32,634 bases of DNA from the NCBI GenBank assembly GCA_021200695.1, contig JAJQGF010000211.1, forward strand, positions 1 to 32,634, given 5' to 3'. The position numbers and the translations under genes were made by a program. The DNA is from Lachnospiraceae bacterium (GTDB lineage Bacteria > Bacillota > Clostridia > Lachnospirales > Lachnospiraceae). Under the pieces are notes generated by a model. The model searched no databases. It was not told the origin of the DNA and saw only the letters and a program-made list of their open reading frames with translations. Shown piece by piece: positions 1,387-20,238 of this stretch (its first letter is position 1; each line of letters begins with the position of its first letter).

Positions 1387-1449
1387 TGAATGCTGTATGA
1401 CGAGGCTGCATTAGTGTTTTGTCTGAAATAACATATAAAAAATTCAATA

Positions 1450-1467
1450 TTGTTATTTTTTTGTCAA
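1450..1467 (+). promoter_or_regulatory. Rex-like operator 1 upstream of thl promoter
   Basis: TTGTTATTTTTTTGTCAA matches the Rex consensus TTGTNA-N6-TNACAA except for one base in the right half. It lies just upstream of the -35 box. Rex is the NADH/NAD+-sensing repressor that controls thl/crt/hbd/bcd genes in several clostridia. The right half-site is imperfect, so this is a motif match and not proof. Confidence 0.5.
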
Positions 1468-1475
1468 TTTTCCCA

Positions 1476-1504
1476 TTGCAAAAGATATATCACTGTGCTA
1501 CAAT
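1476..1504 (+). promoter_or_regulatory. Sigma-A type promoter of the butyrate operon
   Basis: TTGCAA (1476-1481), a 17-bp spacer and TACAAT (1499-1504) form a near-consensus vegetative promoter. Transcription would start near 1511, giving a leader of about 90 nt before thl. It sits between the two inverted Rex-like sites. Confidence 0.7.
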
Positions 1505-1516
1505 GTCTGCATAGAA

Positions 1517-1534
1517 TGATAAAAAAATAACAAT
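1517..1534 (-). promoter_or_regulatory. Rex-like operator 2, inverted copy at the transcription start
   Basis: Read on the minus strand, this is ATTGTTATTTTTTTATCA. It is identical to 1449-1466 (ATTGTTATTTTTTTGTCA) at 17 of 18 positions but in opposite orientation. It would cover about +7 to +24 of the transcript. The left half TTGTTA is perfect; the right half deviates at two bases from the Rex consensus. The paired, inverted arrangement around one promoter is the main argument for function. Confidence 0.45.
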
Positions 1535-1601
1535 CATTTAAATTTAGAAGAAAGTAATGCATAATGGTATAAGAATTTTATTAAAATCGGAGGAAAAGTA
1601 T

Positions 1602-2786
1602 ATGGCAAAGAAGGTTGTATTAGCAGGTGCATGTCGTACGGCAATAGGAACTATGGGCGGCGCGCTCAGCACAACACCCGCAGCAGAGCTCGGAGCGATT
1701 GTAATCAGAGAAGCATTGAAGAGGGCAGGAGTTTCTCCCGAGGCTGTAGACCAGGTATATATGGGATGTGTAATTCAGGCAGGTCAGGGACAGAATGTTG
1801 CGCGTCAGGCTTCAATTAAGGCGGGACTTCCTATTGAGGTGCCGGCGGTAACAATGAATGTAGTATGCGGTTCGGGTCTTAATTGTGTCAATCAGGCTGC
1901 ACAGATGATTATGGCCGGAGATGCCGATATAGTTGTGGCGGGAGGCATGGAGAATATGTCTATGGCACCGTATGCAATTCCTCAGGCGCGCTACGGTTAC
2001 AGAATGAATAACGGTACGCTCGTTGATACAATGATTAAGGATGCACTTTGGGATGCGTTTAATGATTATCATATGATTAAAACCGCGGACAACATCTGTG
2101 AGGAGTGGGGACTTACCAGAGAGGAGCTTGACGAATTTGCGCTTAAGAGCCAGCATAAGGCTGAGGCAGCGCAGAATAACGGTGCGTTTAAGGCGGAGAT
2201 AGTTCCCGTTGAGGTTAAGAAAAAGAAGGAGACCATTGTTTTCGATACTGACGAAGGCCCAAGACACGGCTCTACAATAGAGGTGCTTGCAAAGCTTCGT
2301 CCTATTAATCAGGGCGGCTTCGTAACGGCAGGCAATGCATCGGGCATCAACGATGGTGCGGCTGCTGTTGTTGTAATGAGCGAGGAGAAGGCTAAGGAGT
2401 TGGGAGTTAAGCCAATGGCAACCTTTGTTGCAGGCGCGCTTGCAGGCGTCCGTCCGGAGGTAATGGGTATTGGTCCTGTAGCCTCAACTAAGAAGGTTAT
2501 GGCTAAAACCGGCATGAAGATAGAAGACTTTGATATTATAGAGGCAAACGAGGCGTTTGCCGCACAGTCGGTTGCCGTTGGCAGGGAGCTTGGAATTGAT
2601 GTAGATAAGCAGTTGAATCCCAATGGAGGCGCTATCGCGCTCGGACATCCGGTTGGAGCCTCTGGCTGCCGTATACTTGTAACCCTGCTTCATGAAATGC
2701 AGGCAAGGGGCGCAAAGACAGGCCTGGCAACACTCTGCATCGGCGGAGGAATGGGCTGCTCAACAATTGTTAAAATTGAGGATTGA
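1602..2786 (+). CDS. thl: Acetyl-CoA C-acetyltransferase (thiolase)
   Basis: Condenses two acetyl-CoA to acetoacetyl-CoA, the first step of butyryl-CoA synthesis, in the cytoplasm as a tetramer. The 394-aa length is standard for biosynthetic thiolases. The catalytic set is complete: nucleophile Cys89 in NVVCGSG, His349 in GHPVGASG and Cys379 in [15 protein letters not shown] is also present. An in-frame ATG exists at 1557, but the GGAGG at 1589-1594 places the start at 1602 and gives the normal N-terminus [16 protein letters not shown]. It is the first gene of the butyrate cluster and follows the Rex-like promoter region. crt begins 54 bases after its stop. Confidence 0.97.
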
Positions 2787-2840
2787 GATTTGGCGGATAA
2801 TTGCCTGATGTAATTTTCCGGGATGGAGGCAGAAATTATA

Positions 2841-3626
2841 ATGGAATATATATTATATGAACAGAAGGGCGAATATGCGATTCTGACAATTAATCGTGAG
2901 AAGGCGCTGAATGCGCTTAACTCACAGGTGCTTGAGGAGATTAGCACAGCTCTGGACGAAATAAATTCAGACGAGGTGCGTGTGCTTATTGTTACCGGCG
3001 CAGGTGCAAAAGCCTTTGTTGCAGGTGCTGATATCGGAGAGATGAGCACTCTTACAAAGGCGGAGGGTGAAGCCTTTGGCAAGAAGGGAAATGATGTATT
3101 CAGAAGGCTTGAGACCCTTCCGATTCCTGTAATTGCCGCTGTAAACGGTTTTGCGCTGGGCGGAGGCTGCGAGCTTGCTATGAGCTGTGACATAAGGCTT
3201 TGCTCTGACAATGCCGTGTTCGGTCAGCCGGAGGCGGGGCTTGGCATTACCCCCGGTTTCGGAGGGACGCAGAGGCTGGCTCGTCTTGTGGGTGCAGGTA
3301 TGGCAAAGCAGCTAATCTACACGGCACGTAATATCAAGGCGGAGGAAGCGTTAAGGATTGGGCTTGTAAACGCAGTATATGCTCAGGAGGAACTGCTTCC
3401 CGCCGCAGAAAAGATGGCCTCTGTCATAGCAAAGAATGCTCCCATTGCAGTGCGCAACTGCAAGAAGGCTATAAATGACGGTCTTGAGGCTTCCATGGAT
3501 GAGGCAATCGTTATAGAGGAGAAGCTTTTCGGGGACTGCTTTGAGACTGAGGACCAGAAGTACGGTATGGCCTTTTTCCTTGATAAAAATAAGGAAAAGG
3601 TTAAGGAGCCGTTTAAAAACTGCTGA
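2841..3626 (+). CDS. crt: 3-hydroxybutyryl-CoA dehydratase (crotonase)
   Basis: Dehydrates 3-hydroxybutyryl-CoA to crotonyl-CoA. It belongs to the enoyl-CoA hydratase fold; the 261-aa length is typical. The oxyanion-hole loop AGADI is at 61-65, and both catalytic glutamates are present: Glu111 in GGGCELAMSCD and Glu131 in GQPEAGLGITPGFGG. A further in-frame ATG at 2823 lies on top of the GGAGG (2825-2829) that serves ATG 2841, so the later start is chosen; that spacer is 11 bases, a little long. It is second in the cluster, between thl and hbd, in the order seen in many Lachnospiraceae. Confidence 0.95.
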   Translation: MEYILYEQKGEYAILTINREKALNALNSQVLEEISTALDEINSDEVRVLIVTGAGAKAFVAGADIGEMSTLTKAEGEAFGKKGNDVFRRLETLPIPVIAAVNGFALGGGCELAMSCDIRLCSDNAVFGQPEAGLGITPGFGGTQRLARLVGAGMAKQLIYTARNIKAEEALRIGLVNAVYAQEELLPAAEKMASVIAKNAPIAVRNCKKAINDGLEASMDEAIVIEEKLFGDCFETEDQKYGMAFFLDKNKEKVKEPFKNC

Positions 3627-3649
3627 GATTAATAATATAGAATTTTCAC

Positions 3650-3664
3650 ACCGCCATGAGCGGT
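3650..3664 (+). other. Small hairpin in the crt-hbd gap
   Basis: ACCGC (3650-3654) and GCGGT (3660-3664) form a 5-bp GC-rich stem with loop CATGA, 8 bases before the GAGGAC ribosome binding site of hbd. There is no T-run, so it is not a terminator. It could be a processing or stability element in the polycistronic mRNA. Confidence 0.3.
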
Positions 3665-3680
3665 AGAAAGCGAGGACAAA

Positions 3681-4559
3681 ATGAAGGTTGGCGTTATAGG
3701 CGCAGGTACCATGGGACAGGGAATAGCAAAGGCATTTGCGCAGGTTGACGGCTACGAGGTAGCCCTCTGCGATATTAAGCAGGAATGGGCAGAAGGCGGC
3801 AGGGAAAAAATTGCAAAGGGATATGCCAGACTTGTAGAGAAGGGTAAGCTTGAACAGACGGCAGTTGACAATATTCTTGCGAAGATTACACCGGGCCTCA
3901 AGGAGGATTTATGTGCAGACTGTGATTTGATAGTTGAGGCGGCATTTGAAGATATGGAAGTAAAAAAGACCACCTTCGGAGAGCTCGACAGGCTTGTAAA
4001 GCCCGAGTGCATTTTTGCTTCCAATACCTCCAGCCTCTCAATAACTGAGATTGGGAACGGTCTGAACCGTCCGATGATAGGTATGCATTTCTTCAATCCT
4101 GCGGACCGCATGAAGCTGGTAGAGGTAATAGCCGGGGTAAATACCCCTGCAGAGACGGTTGAAGCAATAAAAAGGATTTGCGGGGAAATCGGAAAAACTC
4201 CGGTACAGGTCAATGAGGCGGCAGGTTTTGTTGTAAACCGTATTCTTATTCCTATGATTAATGAAGCTGCTTTTATTAAAATGGAAGGCGTTTCAGATAT
4301 TGCAGGTATAGATGCAGCAATGAAGCTGGGAGCAAATCATCCTATGGGTCCCCTGGAATTAGGTGACTTTATCGGACTTGATATATGCCTTGCCATTATG
4401 GATGTACTTTATAAGGAGACAGGCGACAGCAAATACCGCGCATGCCCTATGCTTAGAAAGATGGTGCGCGGCGGCAATCTCGGAGTTAAGAGCGGAAAGG
4501 GCTTTTATGTGTACAATGCGGATCGCACTAAGACGCCATCTGATGCACAATGCGAATAG
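3681..4559 (+). CDS. hbd: 3-hydroxybutyryl-CoA dehydrogenase
   Basis: Reduces acetoacetyl-CoA to 3-hydroxybutyryl-CoA with NAD(P)H. The 292-aa protein begins with a Rossmann motif, GAGTMGQG at residues 7-14. It keeps the catalytic residues of the family: His136 in GMHFFNP, Glu148 in LVEVI and Asn186 in FVVNRIL. The C-terminal helical domain ends with the usual GVKSGKGFYVY, plus about a dozen polar residues. ATG 3681 has GAGGAC about 7 bases upstream. It is third in the butyrate cluster, and its 54-bp gap from crt carries a small hairpin. Confidence 0.96.
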   Translation: MKVGVIGAGTMGQGIAKAFAQVDGYEVALCDIKQEWAEGGREKIAKGYARLVEKGKLEQTAVDNILAKITPGLKEDLCADCDLIVEAAFEDMEVKKTTFGELDRLVKPECIFASNTSSLSITEIGNGLNRPMIGMHFFNPADRMKLVEVIAGVNTPAETVEAIKRICGEIGKTPVQVNEAAGFVVNRILIPMINEAAFIKMEGVSDIAGIDAAMKLGANHPMGPLELGDFIGLDICLAIMDVLYKETGDSKYRACPMLRKMVRGGNLGVKSGKGFYVYNADRTKTPSDAQCE

Positions 4560-4599
4560 AAGAATGCCAAAAGGAGGCATTTCTCACAGTATTAGATAA

Positions 4600-4624
4600 A
4601 TATCACGAATGTAGCTGGTGATAT
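4600..4624 (+). other. Hairpin in the hbd-bcd leader
   Basis: ATATCAC (4600-4606) pairs perfectly with GTGATAT (4618-4624) across an 11-nt loop, 17 bases before the GGAGG of bcd. A second, weaker stem, AATGCC/GGCATT, lies at 4563-4581. Neither has a T-tract. This 96-bp gap is the longest inside the operon, so mRNA processing or differential stability of the bcd-etfBA part is possible. Confidence 0.3.
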
Positions 4625-4655
4625 GTATAATTATAAACATGGAGGAAATATAATC

Positions 4656-5822
4656 ATGGATTTTTCTTTAAGCAAGGAACATGAAATGGCGCGTTCCCTT
4701 TTCAGGGAATTCGCCGAAAACGAAGCAAAGCCTCTTGCGATAGAGGTTGATGAGAATGAAAAATTCCCCAGAGAGACCGTTGATAAAATGGGCAGATACG
4801 GTTTCCTCGGAATTCCCGTTCCTAGGCAGTATGGAGGACAGGGCTGCGATATTCTTACTTATGTTATGTGTGTTGAGGAGCTCTCAAAGGTATGCGCTAC
4901 CACAGGTGTAATTGTGTCGGCTCACACATCGCTTTGCTGCGACCCTATTCAGACCTATGGCACTGAGGAACAGAAGCAGAAATATCTTGTTCCTCTTGCA
5001 AAGGGAGAAAAGCTTGGGGCTTTCGGGCTCACCGAGCCCGGCGCCGGAACCGACGCTCAGGGACAGCAGACAAAGGCAGTCCTTGACGGTGACGAGTGGG
5101 TATTAAACGGCTCAAAATGCTTTATTACAAACGGAAAGGAGGCAGATATTTATGTAATATTTGCCGTGACCGGAAAAATTGAGAAACGTGGAAAGATGAT
5201 TAAGGAAATTTCAGCTTTTATCGTTGAAAAGGGAACTCCCGGATTTACCTTCGGTACGAAAGAGAATAAGATGGGTATCCGCGGTTCTGCCACATATGAG
5301 CTGATTTTCACGGACTGCCGTATTCCAAAGGAAAATATGCTTGGACAGCAGGGCAAGGGCTTCAACATTGCAATGCATACGCTCGACGGCGGACGTATAG
5401 GCATCGCGGCGCAGGCTCTCGGTATTGCAGAGGGTGCTCTTGAGAGGACAATAGAGTATACTAAAGAGAGAAAACAGTTTGGAAAGTCTATTTCAGGCTT
5501 CCAGAATACGCAGTTCCAGCTTGCGGATATGGCCACAAAGGTTGAGGCTGCAAAGCTTCTGGTATACAAGGCTGCAATGAAGAAGGCTGAGTATGCAAAA
5601 AATCCCAAAATTTCTTATTCCTTCGAAGCTGCGCAGGCTAAGCTCTATGCCGCCGAGGTTGCAATGGAGGTTACTACCAAGGCCGTACAATTACATGGCG
5701 GATATGGTTACATCAGAGAGTACGAGGTTGAGCGCATGATGAGAGATGCAAAGATTACCGAGATTTATGAGGGAACATCAGAGGTTCAGCGCATGGTAAT
5801 CTCAGCCGGCTTATTAAAGTAA
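4656..5822 (+). CDS. bcd: Butyryl-CoA dehydrogenase
   Basis: FAD-dependent reduction of crotonyl-CoA to butyryl-CoA, working with EtfAB. In anaerobes this complex usually bifurcates NADH electrons to crotonyl-CoA and ferredoxin. The 388-aa protein has the acyl-CoA dehydrogenase layout: an N-terminal helical domain, FGLTEPGAGTDA in the middle beta domain, the C-terminal GGYGYIREYEVERMMRDAKI, and the catalytic Glu372 in IYEGTSEVQRM. The in-frame ATG at 4623 has no ribosome binding site; GGAGG at 4641-4645 selects ATG 4656 and gives MDFSLSKEHEM. etfB follows by 18 bases. Confidence 0.95.
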   Translation: MDFSLSKEHEMARSLFREFAENEAKPLAIEVDENEKFPRETVDKMGRYGFLGIPVPRQYGGQGCDILTYVMCVEELSKVCATTGVIVSAHTSLCCDPIQTYGTEEQKQKYLVPLAKGEKLGAFGLTEPGAGTDAQGQQTKAVLDGDEWVLNGSKCFITNGKEADIYVIFAVTGKIEKRGKMIKEISAFIVEKGTPGFTFGTKENKMGIRGSATYELIFTDCRIPKENMLGQQGKGFNIAMHTLDGGRIGIAAQALGIAEGALERTIEYTKERKQFGKSISGFQNTQFQLADMATKVEAAKLLVYKAAMKKAEYAKNPKISYSFEAAQAKLYAAEVAMEVTTKAVQLHGGYGYIREYEVERMMRDAKITEIYEGTSEVQRMVISAGLLK

Positions 5823-5840
5823 ATATGGAGGTAATTTGAC

Positions 5841-6626
5841 GTGAAAGTTATCGTTTGTGTAAAACAGGTTCCGGATACAAAGGGCGGAGTAAAATTTAAT
5901 GCTGACGGAACACTTGACAGGGCAGCAATGCTCGCCATAATGAATCCTGATGACAAGGCAGGACTTGAGGCTGCCCTCAGATTAAAGGATGAGTATGGAG
6001 CAGAGGTTACGGTGCTTACCATGGGTCTCCCTAAGGCAGCAGATGTGCTTCGCGAAGCAATCGCAATGGGTGCCGACAAGGGTATACTCGTAACCGACAG
6101 AGTATTGGGAGGCGCAGACACATGGGCGACCTCTACAACAATCGCAGGCGCGATTAGAAATCTTGAATATGATTTAATCATCACAGGACGCCAGGCTATT
6201 GACGGAGATACTGCACAGGTTGGTCCACAGATTGCCGAGCATCTCGGAATTCCTGTTATCTCCTATGCGCAGGATATAAAGGTTGAGGGAGATAAGGTTA
6301 TTGTACAACGCCAGTATGACGACAGATATCATGTGCTTGAGGCAAAGCTGCCATGTCTGATTACAGCGCTGTCAGAGCTTAATGAGCCCCGTTATATGAC
6401 GCCCGGGGGAATCTTTGATGCCTGTGCCGCGGAAATTACCACATGGGGCAGAGCTGACCTTAAGGATGTGGAGGATTCTAATCTTGGACTCGCGGGTTCT
6501 CCCACAAAGATTGCAAAGGCATCTGATAAGGTGCGCAAGGGAGCCGGGGAGAAGGTTTCTCCTGAGTCTCCTGATGAGGCGGTAAGCTATATTGTGGATA
6601 AGCTTACGGAAAAGCATGTTATCTAA
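5841..6626 (+). CDS. etfB: Electron transfer flavoprotein, beta subunit
   Basis: Small subunit of the EtfAB flavoprotein that passes electrons from NADH to butyryl-CoA dehydrogenase. The 261-aa protein opens with MKVIVCVKQVPDT and contains the signature DGDTAQVGPQIAE, both typical of EtfB; AMGADKGILVTD lies in the nucleotide-binding region. The start codon is GTG at 5841, with GGAGGT at 5827-5832 and an 8-base spacer, so the non-ATG start is well supported. It lies directly between bcd and etfA, as expected for the Bcd-Etf complex. Bifurcation is inferred from family and context. Confidence 0.95.
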   Translation: MKVIVCVKQVPDTKGGVKFNADGTLDRAAMLAIMNPDDKAGLEAALRLKDEYGAEVTVLTMGLPKAADVLREAIAMGADKGILVTDRVLGGADTWATSTTIAGAIRNLEYDLIITGRQAIDGDTAQVGPQIAEHLGIPVISYAQDIKVEGDKVIVQRQYDDRYHVLEAKLPCLITALSELNEPRYMTPGGIFDACAAEITTWGRADLKDVEDSNLGLAGSPTKIAKASDKVRKGAGEKVSPESPDEAVSYIVDKLTEKHVI

Positions 6627-6683
6627 GGCTCATTAAAGTAAAAATTTAAGCTTGAGCATAAGAATATAAAGGAGAATGATAAA

Positions 6684-7733
6684 ATGAGTTTGGAAGAATA
6701 TAAAGGCGTTTATGTCTTCGCTCAGCAGGTTGATAACCAAATCAGCGGTATTTCATTTGAACTGCTTGGTAAGGCAAAGGAGCTTGCGGGCACTTTAAAT
6801 GAAGAGGTTACGGCAGTGCTTATCGGTTCAGGAATAAGGGCTCTTGCGGATGAGCTTGCCGAGTACGGTGCGGACAGAGTAATTGTTGTGGATGACCCCG
6901 AGCTTGAGGTTTACAGAACAGAGCCATATGCGCATGCACTCGCTTCTGTTATCAATAAGTATAAGCCGGAAATTATGCTGGTGGGCGCTACTGCAATCGG
7001 ACGTGACCTTGGACCTACCGTTTCCGCAAGAGTTGCAACCGGACTTACCGCAGACTGCACAAAGCTTGAGATTGGAGATTTTCCCCTTAATGCAATTCCC
7101 GGAAGGGAGGCGGAGCAGAAGCATAATCAGCTTCTTATGACCCGTCCGGCTTTCGGAGGAAACACCATTGCAACCATTGCATGCCCTGACAATCGCCCTC
7201 AGATGGCAACAGTCCGTCCCGGTGTAATGCAGAAGCTTGAACCCATAAAGGGTGCTAAGGCGGTGATTGAGGACTACAATCCCGGATTTACCCCGAACAA
7301 CAGATATGTGACAATAAAAGAGGTAGTTAAGGCAGTAGCTGATGCAGCTGATATTATGGATGCCAAAATCCTTGTTTCCGGTGGACGCGGAGTTGGCTCA
7401 GCCGAGAACTTTAAAATGCTTGAAGAGCTGGCGGATGTTCTTGGAGGACAGGTAAGCTGTTCGAGAGCGGTTGTGGATTCCGGCTGGAAGCCGAAGGACC
7501 TTCAGGTGGGACAGACCGGCAAGACGGTAAGGCCTCAGGTTTATTTTGCAATAGGTATCTCAGGAGCAATACAGCATGTTGCAGGTATGGAGGAGTCAGA
7601 CCTTATCATTGCCATAAATAAGGATGAGGACGCACCTATATTTGATGTTGCTGATTATGGCATTGTAGGTGATTTGAACAAAATAGTTCCGCAGCTTACC
7701 GAGAAGCTTAAGGCTGTCATTGCGTCTAAATAG
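6684..7733 (+). CDS. etfA: Electron transfer flavoprotein, alpha subunit
   Basis: Large subunit of EtfAB. The 349-aa protein has an N-terminal alpha/beta domain followed by the FAD-binding C-terminal domain. The latter shows the conserved blocks VSGGRGVGSAENF, SRAVVDSGW, VGQTGKTVRPQVYFAIGISG, IQHVAGM and INKDEDAPIFDVADYGIVGDL. A GGAG ribosome binding site precedes ATG 6684. It is the last gene of the butyrate cluster; a strong terminator lies 36 bases after its stop. No iron-sulfur N-terminal extension is present. Confidence 0.96.
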   Translation: MSLEEYKGVYVFAQQVDNQISGISFELLGKAKELAGTLNEEVTAVLIGSGIRALADELAEYGADRVIVVDDPELEVYRTEPYAHALASVINKYKPEIMLVGATAIGRDLGPTVSARVATGLTADCTKLEIGDFPLNAIPGREAEQKHNQLLMTRPAFGGNTIATIACPDNRPQMATVRPGVMQKLEPIKGAKAVIEDYNPGFTPNNRYVTIKEVVKAVADAADIMDAKILVSGGRGVGSAENFKMLEELADVLGGQVSCSRAVVDSGWKPKDLQVGQTGKTVRPQVYFAIGISGAIQHVAGMEESDLIIAINKDEDAPIFDVADYGIVGDLNKIVPQLTEKLKAVIASK

Positions 7734-10649: not shown

Positions 10650-12185
10650 ATGAAAAAAACGGGAAATATAGTAGAGAATATAAGCCAAAGGGCGGTTAAG
10701 CTTCTGATATTAGTTATAATCGCTGCATTTGTCATTGAGACGGCGGGATATACATACAGACTGGATTATGATTATTTGTCCGATATTGTTTATCGGTTCG
10801 GAATATCGCCCATGAAGCAAATACTGTATGCCATAGCTATTGCGCTTGCTTTATATATATTGCAGAGATTTATACTTAACGGAAACGAAGAAAAGCAGAA
10901 AAAAATTGTCAGATACATAGCTGTTGCCGACACTCTTCTTCTGGGAGTGCTGCTTTCGGTATACGTTACATTATCACATATTCCGCCGCATTGGGACCAG
11001 CTTCAGGTATTTTACTATGCGCAGGAGTTTATGGACGGGAACTACAGCGGAATGAATATGGCATATCTAAGGATATATATTCAGCAGTATGGACTGATTT
11101 TTCTTGAAGAGCTGCTGCTGCATGTCTGGAACGATTACAGGCTTTTTCAATATGTGAATGTTATTTTCATTATGATTACGGTCTATATGATTTATCTGAT
11201 TAGTGATGAAATCTTCCATAATCAGAGAATTAATATCTATGCCTTATTCGGAGTAACGCTGTTTCTGCCTTTACATATCTATGTAAATTATGTGTATGGG
11301 GATTTATGCTCTATAGCAATGACACTCATGGTAGTATGGGGGCTTCTTAAGTTTTGCAAAGCTCAAAGCCGTCGTTATGTTTTTATCGCCGTGTGTGCAG
11401 CAACAGTCGGCGTCCTGGCAAGAAAAAATACTCTGATACCGCTCATAGCCGTATTGCTGGTTTGTCTTATTTATGCGTGGAGGGAGAGTAATATAAAGGT
11501 TTTATTCTTCGGACTGATAATAATAATTATGCCTGTTATTGCAAACCGGGCCGTGCTTACATATTATGAGTATGTGTCTGAATATGAGATTGACGAGGGG
11601 ATTCCGGCAACGGCATGGATAGCAATGGGGTTAAGCGACGACGGCAGCGGCGGTATTGGCATTTTTAACGGTTATAATGAAGCAATATGGAATGCGGTGG
11701 GAGGAGATAACGATAGAGTCAGAGAGCTTGTCGCTGAAAACATAAGAGAGAGGCTTACTGAGCTGTCGTCTGACAAAAAGGTGTCATATGAATTTTTCCG
11801 GTATAAAATATTTGAGCAATGGGGCGAGCCAAGCTTCTCAAGTATAAATGAAACGGGAAAGGGTATAAACGAAAAGGAAGGAATAGTAGCATTTATATAT
11901 TCAGATAAAATATCCGATATGATTTATCGATATATGAATCATCATATGTTCCTGATTTATGTTTGTGTTTTGGCATTTGTGATATGTGCATTTAATAAAA
12001 AAAGTGATATAATAGAGCTTACATTGTTGATAGCAGTAATAGGAGGCTTTATATACAGTGTATTTTGGGAAGCAAAGGGAAAGTATGTTATGCCCTTTGT
12101 GATATTTATGATACCATATATGGCAGCAGGGCTTGAGAGCCTTACGGCCAGACTTAAAAAGCCGGGAAAACGGGCTGACAGATAA
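10650..12185 (+). CDS. Polytopic membrane protein, GT-C/PMT-like glycosyltransferase family
   Basis: A 511-aa integral membrane protein with many hydrophobic segments from about residue 16 to the C-terminus. The first large outside loop holds WDQLQV with Asp116-Gln117, comparable to the catalytic loop acid of GT-C glycosyltransferases. A later loop has GIPATAWIAMG followed by a polar Gly/Asp-rich stretch. Both features recur in the minus-strand gene at 13480-15054, so the two are paralogues. A role in transferring lipid-linked sugars to a surface polymer is inferred from fold only. AAGGAC lies 8-9 bases before ATG 10650. It sits directly upstream of larC (24-bp gap). Confidence 0.6.
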   Translation: MKKTGNIVENISQRAVKLLILVIIAAFVIETAGYTYRLDYDYLSDIVYRFGISPMKQILYAIAIALALYILQRFILNGNEEKQKKIVRYIAVADTLLLGVLLSVYVTLSHIPPHWDQLQVFYYAQEFMDGNYSGMNMAYLRIYIQQYGLIFLEELLLHVWNDYRLFQYVNVIFIMITVYMIYLISDEIFHNQRINIYALFGVTLFLPLHIYVNYVYGDLCSIAMTLMVVWGLLKFCKAQSRRYVFIAVCAATVGVLARKNTLIPLIAVLLVCLIYAWRESNIKVLFFGLIIIIMPVIANRAVLTYYEYVSEYEIDEGIPATAWIAMGLSDDGSGGIGIFNGYNEAIWNAVGGDNDRVRELVAENIRERLTELSSDKKVSYEFFRYKIFEQWGEPSFSSINETGKGINEKEGIVAFIYSDKISDMIYRYMNHHMFLIYVCVLAFVICAFNKKSDIIELTLLIAVIGGFIYSVFWEAKGKYVMPFVIFMIPYMAAGLESLTARLKKPGKRADR

Positions 12186-13479: not shown

Positions 13480-15054
13480 TTAACTTACAACGAGGGAAGC
13501 TCTTATTTTGGATATCAGATTATTCCAGCCAATGCATGCAAGAGGAAGCATGATAATATAGTATGGCAGTATGAAGCGGGAATTGGCCTCCCACAGTATA
13601 CTGAACAAAAACCCTCCGAGAATGCACAGCTCGGGCAGCAGCATATATAAGCCGTGTTCCCTGATATTTTTATCAGTGTCGTAGGATGCGCTCATTACTG
13701 TATTGCTGTCGGTGCTCCTGCGGAAAATTAAATATAACAGTACCCCTGAGTAAGTGATGTTTTGAAATATCGACAGCGCGGTCATAATTTCACCGCTATG
13801 CTCAATTATAAATGCGGTGAGTCCGTGAGTCTCCTCTTCGTCGGTAAATATTATGTCATAAGAATGAAAAAAGGGGTCATTCCATTGAGTGCTTATTTTG
13901 CGTTTCCAGAAGCTTAAGGCATATATCGGGTCTTCGCGGAAATAGTTAAAGCGCTCTTTTATTTTCTCAATAGCCATTTCAGAGGCCTTGCGGCGGTCAT
14001 ATTCCGCTTCATAATAAGCGGGTACGGGGTAATTATTGAACCATCCGGGACTGCCCTCCTCCAACATACCCATGGCAATCCATGCGCTCGAGGGAATCCC
14101 GCCGGTCACCGTATATCCGCTTATATTGCTGTAATATGTATTGATAAGCCTAAGACTGCCAAATGGTGTTATGCACAGAGCTAAAAGCAGTATTATAAGC
14201 AAACGGCGTCGGGTGATAATAATGTGTATCATAAGGATAATGGCAGCCGCAATGAGCAGTATTATGGAATTTTTCTTGAAAAGCACGGCAAGCACAAGCT
14301 CAGGCACACTGAGAAGCAGATATTTAGGCTGGCGGCTTCTGAGACCTTTTATAAAGTGATTTATAAAAAGCAGCGAAAACAGCATTGATGGGATATCACC
14401 GTAAAGCAGACTTGCATGAATATAAAGCGGAAGAAGCGTAAGAACATAAAGTGTTCCGAGCAGCTGTACCACAGTGCTGTCTGTCAGACTCTCAATGAGC
14501 AGACATGCTGCAAACACTATTCCGGCTATGAACAGACAGTTTATAACCTGAACCATAAAGAAGGAGGTACTGCCCGTAATTTTGAACAGCAGCTGTAGAA
14601 ATGCAACATAGCCAAGCTGGTGCGGATACATGTCAAGGTATCCGCCGGGAGAAAGATTGATATAATTTCCGGTATTAAAATACATTGCAGCTCCGTATAC
14701 CTGAGCCTGGTCTCCGTAGGGAGTGCGGCTTCCGTCCGAGAGGATAAGATATGATATTAAAAATGCCAATACAGCAGCGGCAATTCTGTAAAAAGGCCTG
14801 CTTTTTGCAAGGAGGCCTTTAACGAAGGCTTTTTTGTCTGTCAGAGCCCTAAGCAGATATATAATCACACAGAATATAAGTATTGCTGCCAGATGCAGAA
14901 GTATATTATCGTGAAGCTTATATACAGGTACATTGGAAAGCTCGTCCGCATCAGGAGAAAAGCATGACTGTGTTACAAGCAGTGAAGATACGGTTAGAAA
15001 GGAAAATATAATTATAAGCGTAAATTTCAGAAAGCGGCTGCAAAATTTTAACAT
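13480..15054 (-). CDS. Polytopic membrane protein, GT-C/PMT-like, paralogue of the gene at 10650
   Basis: About 524 residues with an N-terminal hydrophobic segment, a second segment, then many transmembrane stretches. It shares with the 10650-12185 product a GDQAQV loop motif (the Asp-Gln at almost the same residue number), GGIPSSAWIAMG about two-thirds along, and a C-terminal ILWEANSRFILPY resembling VFWEAKGKYVMPF. An ATG at 15063 is possible, but its AGGA would touch the start codon; ATG 15054 has AGGA at 9 bases and is preferred. It converges on larC with a 4-bp gap and no room for a terminator between them. Glycosyl transfer to a surface polymer is inferred. Confidence 0.6.
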   Translation of the reverse strand: MLKFCSRFLKFTLIIIFSFLTVSSLLVTQSCFSPDADELSNVPVYKLHDNILLHLAAILIFCVIIYLLRALTDKKAFVKGLLAKSRPFYRIAAAVLAFLISYLILSDGSRTPYGDQAQVYGAAMYFNTGNYINLSPGGYLDMYPHQLGYVAFLQLLFKITGSTSFFMVQVINCLFIAGIVFAACLLIESLTDSTVVQLLGTLYVLTLLPLYIHASLLYGDIPSMLFSLLFINHFIKGLRSRQPKYLLLSVPELVLAVLFKKNSIILLIAAAIILMIHIIITRRRLLIILLLALCITPFGSLRLINTYYSNISGYTVTGGIPSSAWIAMGMLEEGSPGWFNNYPVPAYYEAEYDRRKASEMAIEKIKERFNYFREDPIYALSFWKRKISTQWNDPFFHSYDIIFTDEEETHGLTAFIIEHSGEIMTALSIFQNITYSGVLLYLIFRRSTDSNTVMSASYDTDKNIREHGLYMLLPELCILGGFLFSILWEANSRFILPYYIIMLPLACIGWNNLISKIRASLVVS

Positions 15055-15081
15055 TGTTTTCATTCCTGTATTTTTAATTAA

Positions 15082-16077: not shown

Positions 16078-17805
16078 ATGAGGATTAAAAAGCTGGTAAG
16101 TCAGAGATTTAAGGAAAGACCTGCGGACTGTGTTATCGACAGCCATGCGCTGATGATACGCGGAGGTTATATGAAGTATGTCGGCAATGGTATCTTTTCA
16201 GAATATCCGGTATTACGCCGTATAACAGCCAAGATAGAGAATATTATCAGGGAGGAAATGAATGCCATTGATGGACAGGAGGTATTGTTTCCTGTTGTCA
16301 TGCCGGCAGAGCTGTGGCAGGAATCAGGACGTTACGACAGCATCGGAAGTGAATTGGTGCGTTTTCAGGACAGAAATAAGTCGAAGATGGTGCTTGGAAT
16401 GACGCATGAGGAGGCTGCCGTTCAGTTGGTCAGGGAATATGGGCAGTCATATCAGCAGTATCCCTTTATGATTTATCAGATTCAGAGAAAATTCAGGGAT
16501 GAAGCAAGACCCAGGGCAGGAATGATACGTGTGCGCGAATTTACCATGAAGGACGCGTATTCCTTTCATACATCACAGGAGGATTTAGAGGAATATTATA
16601 AGAAATGCTATGATGCCTATAATCGTATATTTGAGCGTGTGGGAATACCGGAGGTTGTGACGGTTGCATCTGACAGCGGAATGATGGGCGGCAGCATGTC
16701 GCATGAGTATATGCTGTTAAACGAGGTAGGAGAGGATTCCATAGTATTATGCACGGAATGTGATTACAGGGCGAACATGGAGGCGGCTGAGAATATTGTT
16801 GAAAATACCGCAGCAGACAGCCTTAAGCCGCTTGAGTGCATTGAGACTCCTGACTGCAAGACGATAGAGGCGGTATGTGAATATTTAAAGAGCGATATAC
16901 TGTCCTCATGTAAGGCGGTTGTATATCAGAAGAATTCGGATGATGCCTTTGTGGTTGCCTTTGTGAGAGGCGACTATGAGGTAAATGAGACAAAGCTGCG
17001 TAATCTTGTCGGAGAGGAGCTTCACACCGCCGAGATTACGGAGGAATCTCCATTGGTTGCCGGATATATCGGACCTTACAATATCTCGGATAAGGTAAGC
17101 TATTATTGCGACTTATCCTTAAAGGGTATTGACAGTATTGTGGCAGGCGCAAATAAAGAGGGCTTCCATTATGTCAATCTTAATTTGGAAAGAGAGATTG
17201 GAAATGTGAAGTATGTTGATATTGCAAAGGTTAAGGAGGGAGGTATATGTCCGTGCTGCGGCAGACCGTCCCTGACAATCAAAAGAGGTATTGAGGTTGG
17301 AAATATTTTTCAGCTTGGTGAAAAGTATACTAAAAGCATGGGCATGCAGTATGCGGACAAGGATGGCTCTATGCATTATCCGATAATGGGCTGCTATGGT
17401 ATCGGTGTAGGCCGTCTGGCGGCATCGATATGTGAGGCCAGACATGATGAATATGGCCCAATCTGGCCTATAGCGATTGCACCGTGGGAGGTGCATATAT
17501 GCTGTCTTCGCCCGGATGATGAGGAGACAAGGCATGCGGCTGATGCTTTATATGAAAAGCTCAGTGCAGAAAGGATTGAGGTTATATATGATGACAGGGA
17601 TGGAATTCGTCCCGGTGAAATGTTTGCAGATGCCGACCTGCTTGGAGTTCCGGTACGCGCTATTATAAGTCCGAGAAATCTAAGGGAAAACATGATCGAA
17701 ATATCCACAAGAGACAAGTCTGTAAAGGCTTTGGTTGAGTCGGAGAAATGCGTGGAATATATAATAGAGCTGATAGCTAAGCTTAAGGGGAATTCCGAAC
17801 GATAA
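16078..17805 (+). CDS. proS: Prolyl-tRNA synthetase (bacterial type with editing insert)
   Basis: Charges tRNA(Pro) with proline in the cytoplasm. The 575-aa length and layout are those of bacterial ProRS: class II motif 2 in FRDEARPRAGMIRVREFTMKDAYSF, an INS editing domain roughly at residues 225-385, motif 3 in GCYGIGVGRL, then the anticodon-binding domain containing DDRDGIRPGEMFADADLLGVP. The INS domain hydrolyses Ala-tRNA(Pro); Cys-tRNA(Pro) is left to YbaK, which is also encoded in this window at 8378. The start ATG 16078 follows AAAGG at a longish distance (about 13 bases). A hairpin follows the gene at 17840-17872. Confidence 0.96.
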   Translation: MRIKKLVSQRFKERPADCVIDSHALMIRGGYMKYVGNGIFSEYPVLRRITAKIENIIREEMNAIDGQEVLFPVVMPAELWQESGRYDSIGSELVRFQDRNKSKMVLGMTHEEAAVQLVREYGQSYQQYPFMIYQIQRKFRDEARPRAGMIRVREFTMKDAYSFHTSQEDLEEYYKKCYDAYNRIFERVGIPEVVTVASDSGMMGGSMSHEYMLLNEVGEDSIVLCTECDYRANMEAAENIVENTAADSLKPLECIETPDCKTIEAVCEYLKSDILSSCKAVVYQKNSDDAFVVAFVRGDYEVNETKLRNLVGEELHTAEITEESPLVAGYIGPYNISDKVSYYCDLSLKGIDSIVAGANKEGFHYVNLNLEREIGNVKYVDIAKVKEGGICPCCGRPSLTIKRGIEVGNIFQLGEKYTKSMGMQYADKDGSMHYPIMGCYGIGVGRLAASICEARHDEYGPIWPIAIAPWEVHICCLRPDDEETRHAADALYEKLSAERIEVIYDDRDGIRPGEMFADADLLGVPVRAIISPRNLRENMIEISTRDKSVKALVESEKCVEYIIELIAKLKGNSER

Positions 17806-17892: not shown

Positions 17893-18474
17893 TTATTTGC
17901 ATGATGCATTTGTAATATTACACAGCAGACACTCCATCTGCCTTATGCCCTTTTTCTGCGATTTTATGATGGCGTCAAGTATCGGCCTGAGCTGTGGACA
18001 TATAGTAAAGCAAAGCGCATTTTCTGACATTCTTACGGCACCCTGATGGTGCGGAATCATTTCACGCATGAAATTTTCATTTATATTGTTGGTGGATACT
18101 GCATTCTTCATTTCACAGAACATTTCTGTGGTTATTCTGTCATAATATTTATAGTATGTCTGAAGCTCCTTTCTGCTGTTTTGCAGTCCGCCGCAGCAGT
18201 CAAGCACCCGCTTCATATCATCAATGCTTTTTGTCTGCTCGGTAATTATATTGGAGGCTATCTCCTGCAGGGGTATGAAGGTGGTATACTTCAAAAGGTT
18301 GCGCGACATTTCGATAGCAGCCATATGATGAGGTATCATTTGTACAATAAAGTTGTGAGATATGCTGTCTGTCAATTCTGCGCAGGTCATTCCGTGAATC
18401 ATTTCCTCAAGTATTTCATAAAAGCGGGAAAGATATTTTTCTGTGACATTGCTTAGGGCTTGCTGATTATTCAT
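17893..18474 (-). CDS. DUF305 protein with two MIPHH motifs
   Basis: A 193-aa helical protein with the DUF305 signature twice: MIPHH at residues 46-50 followed by MAAIEMS, and MIPHH at 139-143 followed by QGAVRMS. DUF305 proteins have ferritin-like four-helix folds, and some bind copper or other metals. No signal peptide is seen, so it is probably cytoplasmic or spore/envelope associated by another route. Cysteines (CC at 93-94 and a C-terminal CLLC) could add metal ligands. The reading frame is open to 18627, but AGGAG 10 bases upstream supports ATG 18474. It diverges from the kinase-phosphatase gene. The function is unknown. Confidence 0.75.
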   Translation of the reverse strand: MNNQQALSNVTEKYLSRFYEILEEMIHGMTCAELTDSISHNFIVQMIPHHMAAIEMSRNLLKYTTFIPLQEIASNIITEQTKSIDDMKRVLDCCGGLQNSRKELQTYYKYYDRITTEMFCEMKNAVSTNNINENFMREMIPHHQGAVRMSENALCFTICPQLRPILDAIIKSQKKGIRQMECLLCNITNASCK

Positions 18475-18499
18475 ATCTTCAGTCTCCTGGCTGTGTGTT

Positions 18500-18527
18500 T
18501 GTATATAATTATGTAAGTAAGGTGTAA
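18500..18527 (-). promoter_or_regulatory. Possible promoter of the DUF305 gene
   Basis: On the minus strand, TTACAC (18522-18527), 16 bp and TATACA (18500-18505) precede ATG 18474 by 25 bases. Both hexamers are only moderate matches. Confidence 0.35.
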
Positions 18528-18576
18528 TTTGTGCAGACCTGTTAATGCTCCGCGTTTTTAACCGTGCGTCCTTCGG

Positions 18577-18605
18577 TTGACTAAACACAGGCCGGATGTT
18601 ACGAT
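18577..18605 (+). promoter_or_regulatory. Promoter of the kinase-PP2C gene
   Basis: TTGACT (18577-18582), a 17-bp spacer and TACGAT (18600-18605) lie 58 bases before ATG 18664. It is divergent from the DUF305 promoter about 50 bp away. Confidence 0.6.
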
Positions 18606-18663
18606 TATTATAAGAGCTTGCGGGCATTATTCAGACGTATATTGCTTGATGTGGGGTGTATGT

Positions 18664-20238
18664 ATGGAGGATTTAAAGGAAAAGCCTCTGCCTGTGGGAG
18701 GTATATTGAAAAACAGATACCGGATTATTTCAGTGCTTGGGATGGGCGGCTTTGGAATTACCTACCGTGCGGAGGACAGACTTTTAAACTGTTATGTGGC
18801 GGTTAAGGGCTCCTCTTTGGGATTTAAACGTGAGGCAGCTCTTCTGGAGGCGGTAAGGGATGTGCCGTACATTGCCCGGCTCAGGGATTATTTTGAGGAG
18901 GCCGGAACAGAGTATATAGTTCTTAATCTGATTGAGGGGAAGACTCTCTTGGAATATGCAAAGGAATGCGGAGGAACGCTTCCGGCGGCGGAGGCGCTCT
19001 CTCTGCTTAGAAACACCTTTGACACTTTATTGAAGCTGCACGATATTGGATATATACACAGGGATATAAGTCCGGGAAATCTCATGCTTTCCGAGGATAA
19101 CCGGGTTTATCTTATTGATTTTGGCGCTGCGGCTTCTTTTGGGGAAAATAACAAATCGGATGATAAACCCATATTCAGGCATAAGGGACTTGAGGCGCCT
19201 GAGCATTCGCAGCCTGACCTTCAGGGACCGTGGACTGATATTTTTTCATTATGCGCGACGATAGTATATCTGATTACGGGAGAGGGAATTGCAGAAGCAA
19301 GGGACAGGCAGCTTTTTGACAGGCTGCCCCGGCTTCTGACGCGGAGCGCTCTTTCCTCAAGGCAGCAGAATGCGCTTATTAAAGGATTGAACCCGGATAT
19401 AAGCCGACGTTTTGCAGATGCAGGGCAGATATATGAGGAGCTCTACGGCGAAGAGCTGACAGCGGGGGAGACTGCGGAGGAGTGGAGAGTCTTTTATCAT
19501 GCCAGAACCTATATTGGCTCGAGACAGCTGAATCAGGATAATTTTGCGGTGGATTCGCTTTTTTACTATAAGGGAGAGGACTGTGAACAGTCCGGAGTCT
19601 TAAGCTGCCGTCCGAAGGAGATACATGTGGCTGTCGTGTGCGATGGCGTAGGGGGCTCAAACCACGGAGAGCTTGCAGCAAAGGCTGCGGTGCAGGCAGT
19701 AATACATTTTGCGGAGGCACACCCCGAAGGAGATGCCCTGCCTGACAGACTGCTGGAGGAGCTGCTGGATCAGATAAATGAAAAAATATTGCAGCTGGGT
19801 GAAAAAATCGGTCGCACAGCGACCACCCTGTCGCTTCTTATGTGGAGGGGAGACCGCTGTTACGCGGTAAATATAGGAGACAGCCCGATTTATTTTCTGC
19901 GCGGGGGAAGACTTAAAAGAATCAGCACACCGCATACGAGGGCTGAGCTTAACATAATGCAGCAGAAGCCGCTTCAGCTGAGGGATTGTAATACATTGAT
20001 GAAGTATTTGGGCAAAAGCGGTGTGACTGGAAGCCAGATGGCGGATTTTTATTATGGGAGGCTTATGAAGGGCGACACCCTTCTGATTTGCTCGGACGGT
20101 GTTTCCAAAAAGCTTGAGGAGAGCCGCCTGAAAAGATATCTTGCCAAAAAGGAAGGCAAATCCATTCCGGCAATATTTAAAGCGATAGAAAAAAGTGAGC
20201 ATAACGATAACTGCACTGCGATTGTACTGAAATTTTAG
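18664..20238 (+). CDS. Ser/Thr protein kinase fused to PP2C-type phosphatase
   Basis: A 524-aa soluble protein with two complete signalling enzymes. Residues about 18-262 are a Hanks-type kinase: Gly loop GMGGFG (26-31), Lys48 in VAVKG, catalytic HRD (132-134) with Asn139, DFG (152-154) and APE (178-180). Residues about 278-524 are a PP2C phosphatase: RTYIGSRQLNQDN with Asp292, CDGVGG with Asp327, TTLSLL, NIGDSPIYFL, LICSDGVS and a terminal DNCTAIVL. All metal ligands expected for both are present. No transmembrane or PASTA segment exists. The frame is open to 18577, but ATG 18664 gives a standard kinase N-terminus; its GGGGT ribosome binding site is weak. Substrates are unknown. Confidence 0.88.
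   Translation: MEDLKEKPLPVGGILKNRYRIISVLGMGGFGITYRAEDRLLNCYVAVKGSSLGFKREAALLEAVRDVPYIARLRDYFEEAGTEYIVLNLIEGKTLLEYAKECGGTLPAAEALSLLRNTFDTLLKLHDIGYIHRDISPGNLMLSEDNRVYLIDFGAAASFGENNKSDDKPIFRHKGLEAPEHSQPDLQGPWTDIFSLCATIVYLITGEGIAEARDRQLFDRLPRLLTRSALSSRQQNALIKGLNPDISRRFADAGQIYEELYGEELTAGETAEEWRVFYHARTYIGSRQLNQDNFAVDSLFYYKGEDCEQSGVLSCRPKEIHVAVVCDGVGGSNHGELAAKAAVQAVIHFAEAHPEGDALPDRLLEELLDQINEKILQLGEKIGRTATTLSLLMWRGDRCYAVNIGDSPIYFLRGGRLKRISTPHTRAELNIMQQKPLQLRDCNTLMKYLGKSGVTGSQMADFYYGRLMKGDTLLICSDGVSKKLEESRLKRYLAKKEGKSIPAIFKAIEKSEHNDNCTAIVLKF

Follow-up and report, generated by a model that had tools for sequence, protein, structure and literature searches.

A Lachnospiraceae gene predicted to encode a soluble Hanks-type kinase and PP2C phosphatase in one chain

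Does a protein kinase that shares its polypeptide with a PP2C phosphatase act as a single enzyme controlling phosphorylation from both sides? This question is raised by a gene on the 32,634-nucleotide contig JAJQGF010000211.1 of a Lachnospiraceae bacterium (the whole stretch is referred to below as the window). The original prediction, made from the sequence letters, described a soluble fusion of a Hanks-type kinase and a PP2C phosphatase with intact catalytic motifs in both halves. We find that both domains are encoded in one 524-amino-acid chain and that the fusion recurs in other genomes. With somewhat more belief than doubt, we read the protein as a soluble bifunctional Ser/Thr kinase-phosphatase that would set the phosphorylation of shared targets and, probably, of itself.

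Two domains and their catalytic residues

The fusion gene is a single uninterrupted open reading frame, from an ATG at 18664 to a stop codon at 20236-20238, and both anticipated domains are recovered above the curated Pfam cut-offs (Table 1). Pkinase (PF00069) covers residues 19-215 (E 1.4e-22) and PP2C_2 (PF13672) lies C-terminal to it, at residues 304-493 (E 1.8e-17). AlphaFold2, given a 61-row alignment, yields a confident two-domain model (mean predicted local distance difference test score, pLDDT, 90.2; predicted template modelling score 0.77) with a low-confidence linker (mean pLDDT 59 in the block 261-270 and below 50 at residues 265-267). The best Foldseek matches in the PDB are the phosphatases tPphA and PstP and the kinases Myt1, PknB and PknA, and none of the 50 best spans both halves.

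The predicted solubility agrees with the hydropathy profile, in which no transmembrane segment was found: the highest 19-residue Kyte-Doolittle mean, 1.44 at residues 193-211, falls on a helix of the kinase C-lobe in the model. Pfam returned no PASTA or FHA match in the protein, which scores 93.7 bits against the NCBIfam PknB_PASTA_kin model (cut-off 450) and thus does not qualify as a PrkC/PASTA kinase.

Each half carries the defining features of its superfamily. The kinase half has the protein kinase fold, the G-loop (GxGGFG), the VAIK lysine (K48, in VAVK), the alpha-C glutamate (E57), H132-R133-D134 and N139 of the catalytic loop, D152-F-G and E180 of APE, together with D192 and R249. In the model, Glu57 lies in an alpha-C helix (residues 55-63) behind the beta-3 strand (43-50) that carries Lys48. 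The PP2C half has the PPM/PP2C fold, with tPphA (2j86) as its best Foldseek match (template modelling score by target 0.86), and all five metal aspartate motifs (QD, DG, GD, DG and DN); its motifs read R287, N-Q-D292, D327-G-V-G-G, T388, G405-D-S, D478-G and D515-N.

These residues are conserved in an alignment of 17 fusion proteins. The kinase K, E, HRD, N, DFG and APE glutamate are identical in all 17, as are the PP2C metal aspartates D292, D327, D406, D478 and D515; the cysteines of the family insert in the PP2C half are found in 14 (C307) and 16 (C315) of the 17. Ser158, which follows DFG and is a candidate phosphorylation site, is kept in 15 of the 17. Pairwise ratios of nonsynonymous to synonymous substitution (dN/dS, Nei-Gojobori), for pairs with usable dS, are about 0.06-0.2 for the kinase and 0.03-0.13 for the PP2C, values that are approximate, many dS being above 1 and near saturation. 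Both halves are thus under strong purifying selection. Since the core catalytic residues are kept in all 17 fusions, a dead remnant of either half is not expected, and the invariant residues and low dN/dS led us to reject a dead domain as the main explanation. This conservation lends good support to the prediction that both halves are catalytic. The claim of intact motifs accordingly stands for the core residues, and both domains look competent; it has to be qualified for a serine in place of the HRDxKP lysine and a 31-residue deletion from the kinase N-lobe, both discussed below.

A rare fusion family and its relatives

The original prediction proposed looking for the same domain order in other genomes. 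When 84,980 species genomes were scanned, 16 distinct full-length orthologues were identified in other genomes, 41-70% identical to the window protein and alignable across the domain junction. Their sources are nearly all Lachnospiraceae, with Acetatifactor, Agathobacter and Candidatus Merdinaster among them; one is a Eubacteriales bacterium. Two genomes from a separate genome search, G255 and G246, correspond to loci L060 and L066 of the scan. Three of 397 genomes of the family carry the fusion, that of the window included. No other was found in 60 congeners and, with the thresholds applied, none in samples of the phylum (399) and of the class (291); this sampling was partial and stringent, and distant fusions may have escaped it. 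The fusion family is rare and patchily distributed.

Phylogenetic trees suggest how this pattern arose. Fused kinase domains form one clade with a support of 100 in a tree containing 75 unfused kinases, as do fused PP2C domains in a tree containing 50 unfused PP2Cs (support 100). Because each half is monophyletic, the trees are most simply explained by a single fusion event with patchy inheritance thereafter. A viral origin was considered and rejected: no relative was confirmed in viral contigs, and matches in a phage collection were weak, in two pieces and below 29% identity over both halves. Plasmid-borne fusions were likewise rejected, the best plasmid matches being adjacent separate genes at the loci inspected. 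One plasmid locus is of interest in its own right: on pZ25 of Shinella oryzae, a single open reading frame (L170:682-3167) joins a region that reads as TagF-like to a PP2C and overlaps a separate kinase reading frame by 4 bases, an arrangement that recalls type VI secretion phosphorylation genes.

A PP2C and a kinase in one bacterial chain were first reported in 2005, in Pseudomonas and Deinococcus, and called uncharacterised (Krupa and Srinivasan, PMC1262709). The window protein resembles these composites in holding both domains in one chain; it comes from a different phylum and, judged by the published description, is set apart by its kinase-first order from the Pseudomonas composites, in which the PP2C is N-terminal of the kinase. 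In 2025, a survey covering 3,573 PP2C sequences from bacteria located those with a Pkinase domain chiefly in Pseudomonadota and raised the possibility of dual enzymes (PMC12088040). The kinase-first family of Lachnospiraceae is thus a new form of a one-chain architecture already known in other bacteria. The original prediction had named, as grounds for dropping it, a fusion that is common and already characterised. At most half of this holds: chains with the two domains in reverse order were already on record in 2005, but the family is rare and no biochemical characterisation of a bacterial kinase/PP2C fusion was found in the searchable open-access literature, a body of work that leaves subscription papers and preprints outside. 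Beyond bacteria, an oomycete STK-PPM protein, predicted to be bifunctional, also combines kinase and PP2C/PPM in one chain; it has a cyclic-nucleotide-binding CAP domain as a sensor, whereas the fusion has none (PMC10925823).

Related systems with separate polypeptides offer a further comparison. PrpC-PrkC and Stp-Stk pairs also set a PP2C against a Hanks-type kinase, but are encoded by two genes, and their kinases have PASTA domains and a membrane anchor, none of which occurs in the fusion. That such partners are usually separate, as originally claimed, is borne out by the window genome itself, which encodes a PrpC (246 amino acids) adjoining a PASTA-PrkC (708 amino acids) at locus L001. As the separate pair is retained, the fusion supplements it and does not replace it. 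Gene pairs of Clostridia that combine an FHA kinase with a PP2C (for example L093 and L103) have kinases of the same general branch as the fusion; unlike the fusion, they consist of separate polypeptides and their kinases carry an extra C-terminal FHA domain. At five Clostridia loci (L093, L103, L105, L108 and L123), the PP2C gene lies directly 3' of the kinase gene, sometimes with a 4-base overlap, and FHA kinases are present in L093 and L103. AceK, the isocitrate dehydrogenase kinase/phosphatase, belongs to a different protein family and has one active site for both jobs, whereas the fusion has two separate domains. The likeness lies in opposing activities in one protein (PMC6591243).

Proposed function and competing explanations

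As a bifunctional enzyme, the protein would use its N-terminal kinase to phosphorylate target proteins, and probably itself, while the C-terminal PP2C, on a linker of roughly ten residues, would strip the phosphates that the kinase half adds. Joining would fix the kinase-to-phosphatase ratio at 1:1 and give both halves the same docking environment. Net phosphorylation might then follow the balance between the halves, tipped by ATP, Mn/Mg, substrate or some further ligand, and not separate expression. The self-resetting switch or mutual control of the two halves that the original prediction held possible is so far conjecture. In unfused Clostridia systems, kinases (FHA-bearing where checked) and PP2Cs are encoded by adjacent, sometimes overlapping genes, and the activities joined here are therefore normal partners.

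Several points weigh against this reading. The HRDxKP catalytic-loop lysine is Ser136 in the window protein and Ser or Cys in all 17 fusions; His173 occupies the position of Thr201 of protein kinase A; and the modelled alpha-C helix is short. On the phosphatase side, glycines 330/331 of the DGxGG motif, canonical in the window protein, drift to A, S or R in several orthologues. The neighbouring genes vary between fusion subfamilies and point to no target, and we infer, rather than observe, the two activities, the sharing of substrates and self-dephosphorylation.

Comparison with relatives puts the kinase departures in context. The HRDxKP lysine is also missing from all 24 unfused relatives examined (Ser in 21), so that its absence characterises this kinase branch and does not mark a loss within the fusion. 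His173, in contrast, sets the fusions apart, 22 of the 24 unfused relatives having Lys there. The gap between K48 and E57 is 8 residues in the window protein versus 38-39 in its nearest orthologues (66-70% identical), in which about 31 residues, including an EFFP motif (EFFPQ...), are present that have been deleted from the window protein N-lobe. A second clade of six fusions is also short in this segment, and on a tree built without the insert columns the shortening has to have happened twice independently.

Such departures could instead mean that the kinase domain is an N-terminal sensor of ATP or phosphate through which the PP2C is turned on or off, and that it phosphorylates proteins only slightly itself. 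PP2Cs are often controlled by domains linked in cis, as SpoIIE is by an adjacent N-terminal domain (PMC5468089), which contacts the PP2C switch helices, and the kinase occupies the same place in the fusion. Ser136, the twice-shortened beta3-alphaC segment and the somewhat faster evolution of the kinase half would all fit. We nonetheless think this explanation unlikely, as Asp134, Asn139, Asp152, Lys48 and Glu57 are invariant in all 17 fusions, unlike in typical pseudokinases, and Ser136 is also the norm among unfused relatives.

Bacterial phosphatases paired with kinases often have a wider substrate range, and a shared target is not proven by anything in the sequence. Both points favour an explanation that we rate slightly lower again, in which the two active halves work on different targets and the fusion serves only co-expression or co-localisation, without mutual feedback. 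More improbable still is a one-chain phosphorylation oscillator or toxin-antitoxin, in which the PP2C would continuously disarm its own kinase in cis until a PP2C-blocking ligand or phage factor freed the kinase, with no partner protein needed.

A defence or toxin-antitoxin device in one chain, resembling the KKP module, would have phage inactivation of the phosphatase unleash a toxic kinase. The rare, patchy distribution would suit such a device, and the kinase half matches the PADLOC models mad6 (1.3e-35) and PD-T4-6 (3.5e-33). These scores, however, are of the kind expected from similarity among kinases in general; against NCBIfam MADS6 the score is 108 bits, far under the cut-off of 460, the genes next to the window fusion gene include none recognised as a defence or prophage gene, and the protein thus falls short of a MADS6 or PD-T4-6 defence kinase in both score and context. 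Nor was a relative confirmed in viral contigs. KKP (PfkA/PfkB/PfpC) likewise opposes kinase and PP2C, but consists of three genes (a PP2C-kinase-kinase triplet), has CSD/FHA kinases and is frequently found in prophages (PMC11341870); the single fused gene of the window does not qualify as KKP. We regard this explanation as very improbable. An assembly or frameshift artefact joining two separate genes, conceivable in a fragmented source genome (2.26 Mb, 338 contigs, 79.6% complete), is refuted by the 16 orthologues in other assemblies, which align across the junction and are monophyletic in both halves.

Genomic surroundings and the value of the family

In the window, the fusion gene is flanked by a DUF305 gene and an acyltransferase gene. 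The acyltransferase belongs to a downstream block (together with a 655-amino-acid protein without a Pfam match and a radical-SAM-type protein with its partner) that is conserved in congeners, and the fusion gene is absent from all eight congener regions fetched around it. The contig therefore belongs to the genus, with the fusion at the edge of a conserved block. No RNA family matched in the window.

A conserved operon partner was sought in 18 fusion loci (16 distinct), and none is common across subfamilies. Several loci of one subfamily have PurF-like amidotransferase and TrmB neighbours, and two loci have ATP-grasp, alpha-E and aspartoacylase neighbours. Three near-identical loci (L070-L072) have the order nadE, fusion gene, RelA/SpoT-domain gene, PPDK_N gene with short gaps (10 bases between the fusion and RelA/SpoT genes in L072); this placement beside NAD synthetase and RelA/SpoT is a hint only as to function. 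At L067, from a horse-faeces Lachnospiraceae, a type VII-like cluster (1420-7333, minus strand) is divergent from the fusion gene and encodes a 1268-amino-acid FtsK/EssC-like ATPase alongside small WXG-like proteins, the Pfam check covering the ATPase.

Elsewhere in the window, 16078-17805 encodes a bacterial-type prolyl-tRNA synthetase with an editing domain. Such synthetases match (E<=1e-150) in 2 of 31 sampled genomes of the genus, the window genome included, and the archaeal-type C-terminal domain is absent from the window genome; the homologue in genome G021 has one in-frame TAA. A LarC-like gene is flanked, on opposite strands, by genes (10650-12185 and 13480-15063) for two large, related membrane proteins, 511 and 527 amino acids long, which share motifs such as GIPxxAWIAMG and, by reading, look like membrane enzymes of glycosyltransferase type.

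Table 1. Coordinates of the fusion gene, its parts and its upstream region in the window
Feature	Position	Strand	Basis
Kinase-PP2C fusion gene, 524 amino acids	18664..20238	+	Open reading frame, Pfam; orthologues have similar start positions
Protein kinase domain, about residues 11-262 (GGFGITY-type N-lobe, HRDISPGN, DFG, APE)	18694..19449	+	Pfam, AlphaFold2 fold, Foldseek
Shortened beta3-alphaC segment, K48 to E57, 8 residues between	18805..18834	+	Alignment, tree
Inter-domain linker, about residues 263-275	19450..19488	+	Lowest AlphaFold2 confidence
PP2C phosphatase domain, about residues 276-524, family insert with C307 and C315	19489..20235	+	Pfam, Foldseek
Divergent intergenic region; likely DUF305 start at 18474 (-)	18475..18663		Sequence reading
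Promoter-like hexamers	18577-18605 and 18582-18611	+	Consensus scan; not evidence of function

Bacterial kinases and their PP2C partners have almost always been studied as separate proteins, with a ratio that is free to drift. A compact, soluble protein of 524 amino acids that combines the two active sites and lacks a sensor domain would be a handy test of whether opposition in cis yields a switch, a homeostat or else a futile cycle. Natural variants for structure-function work are on offer in the family as well, in the two independent losses from the beta3-alphaC segment and the drifting PP2C glycines.
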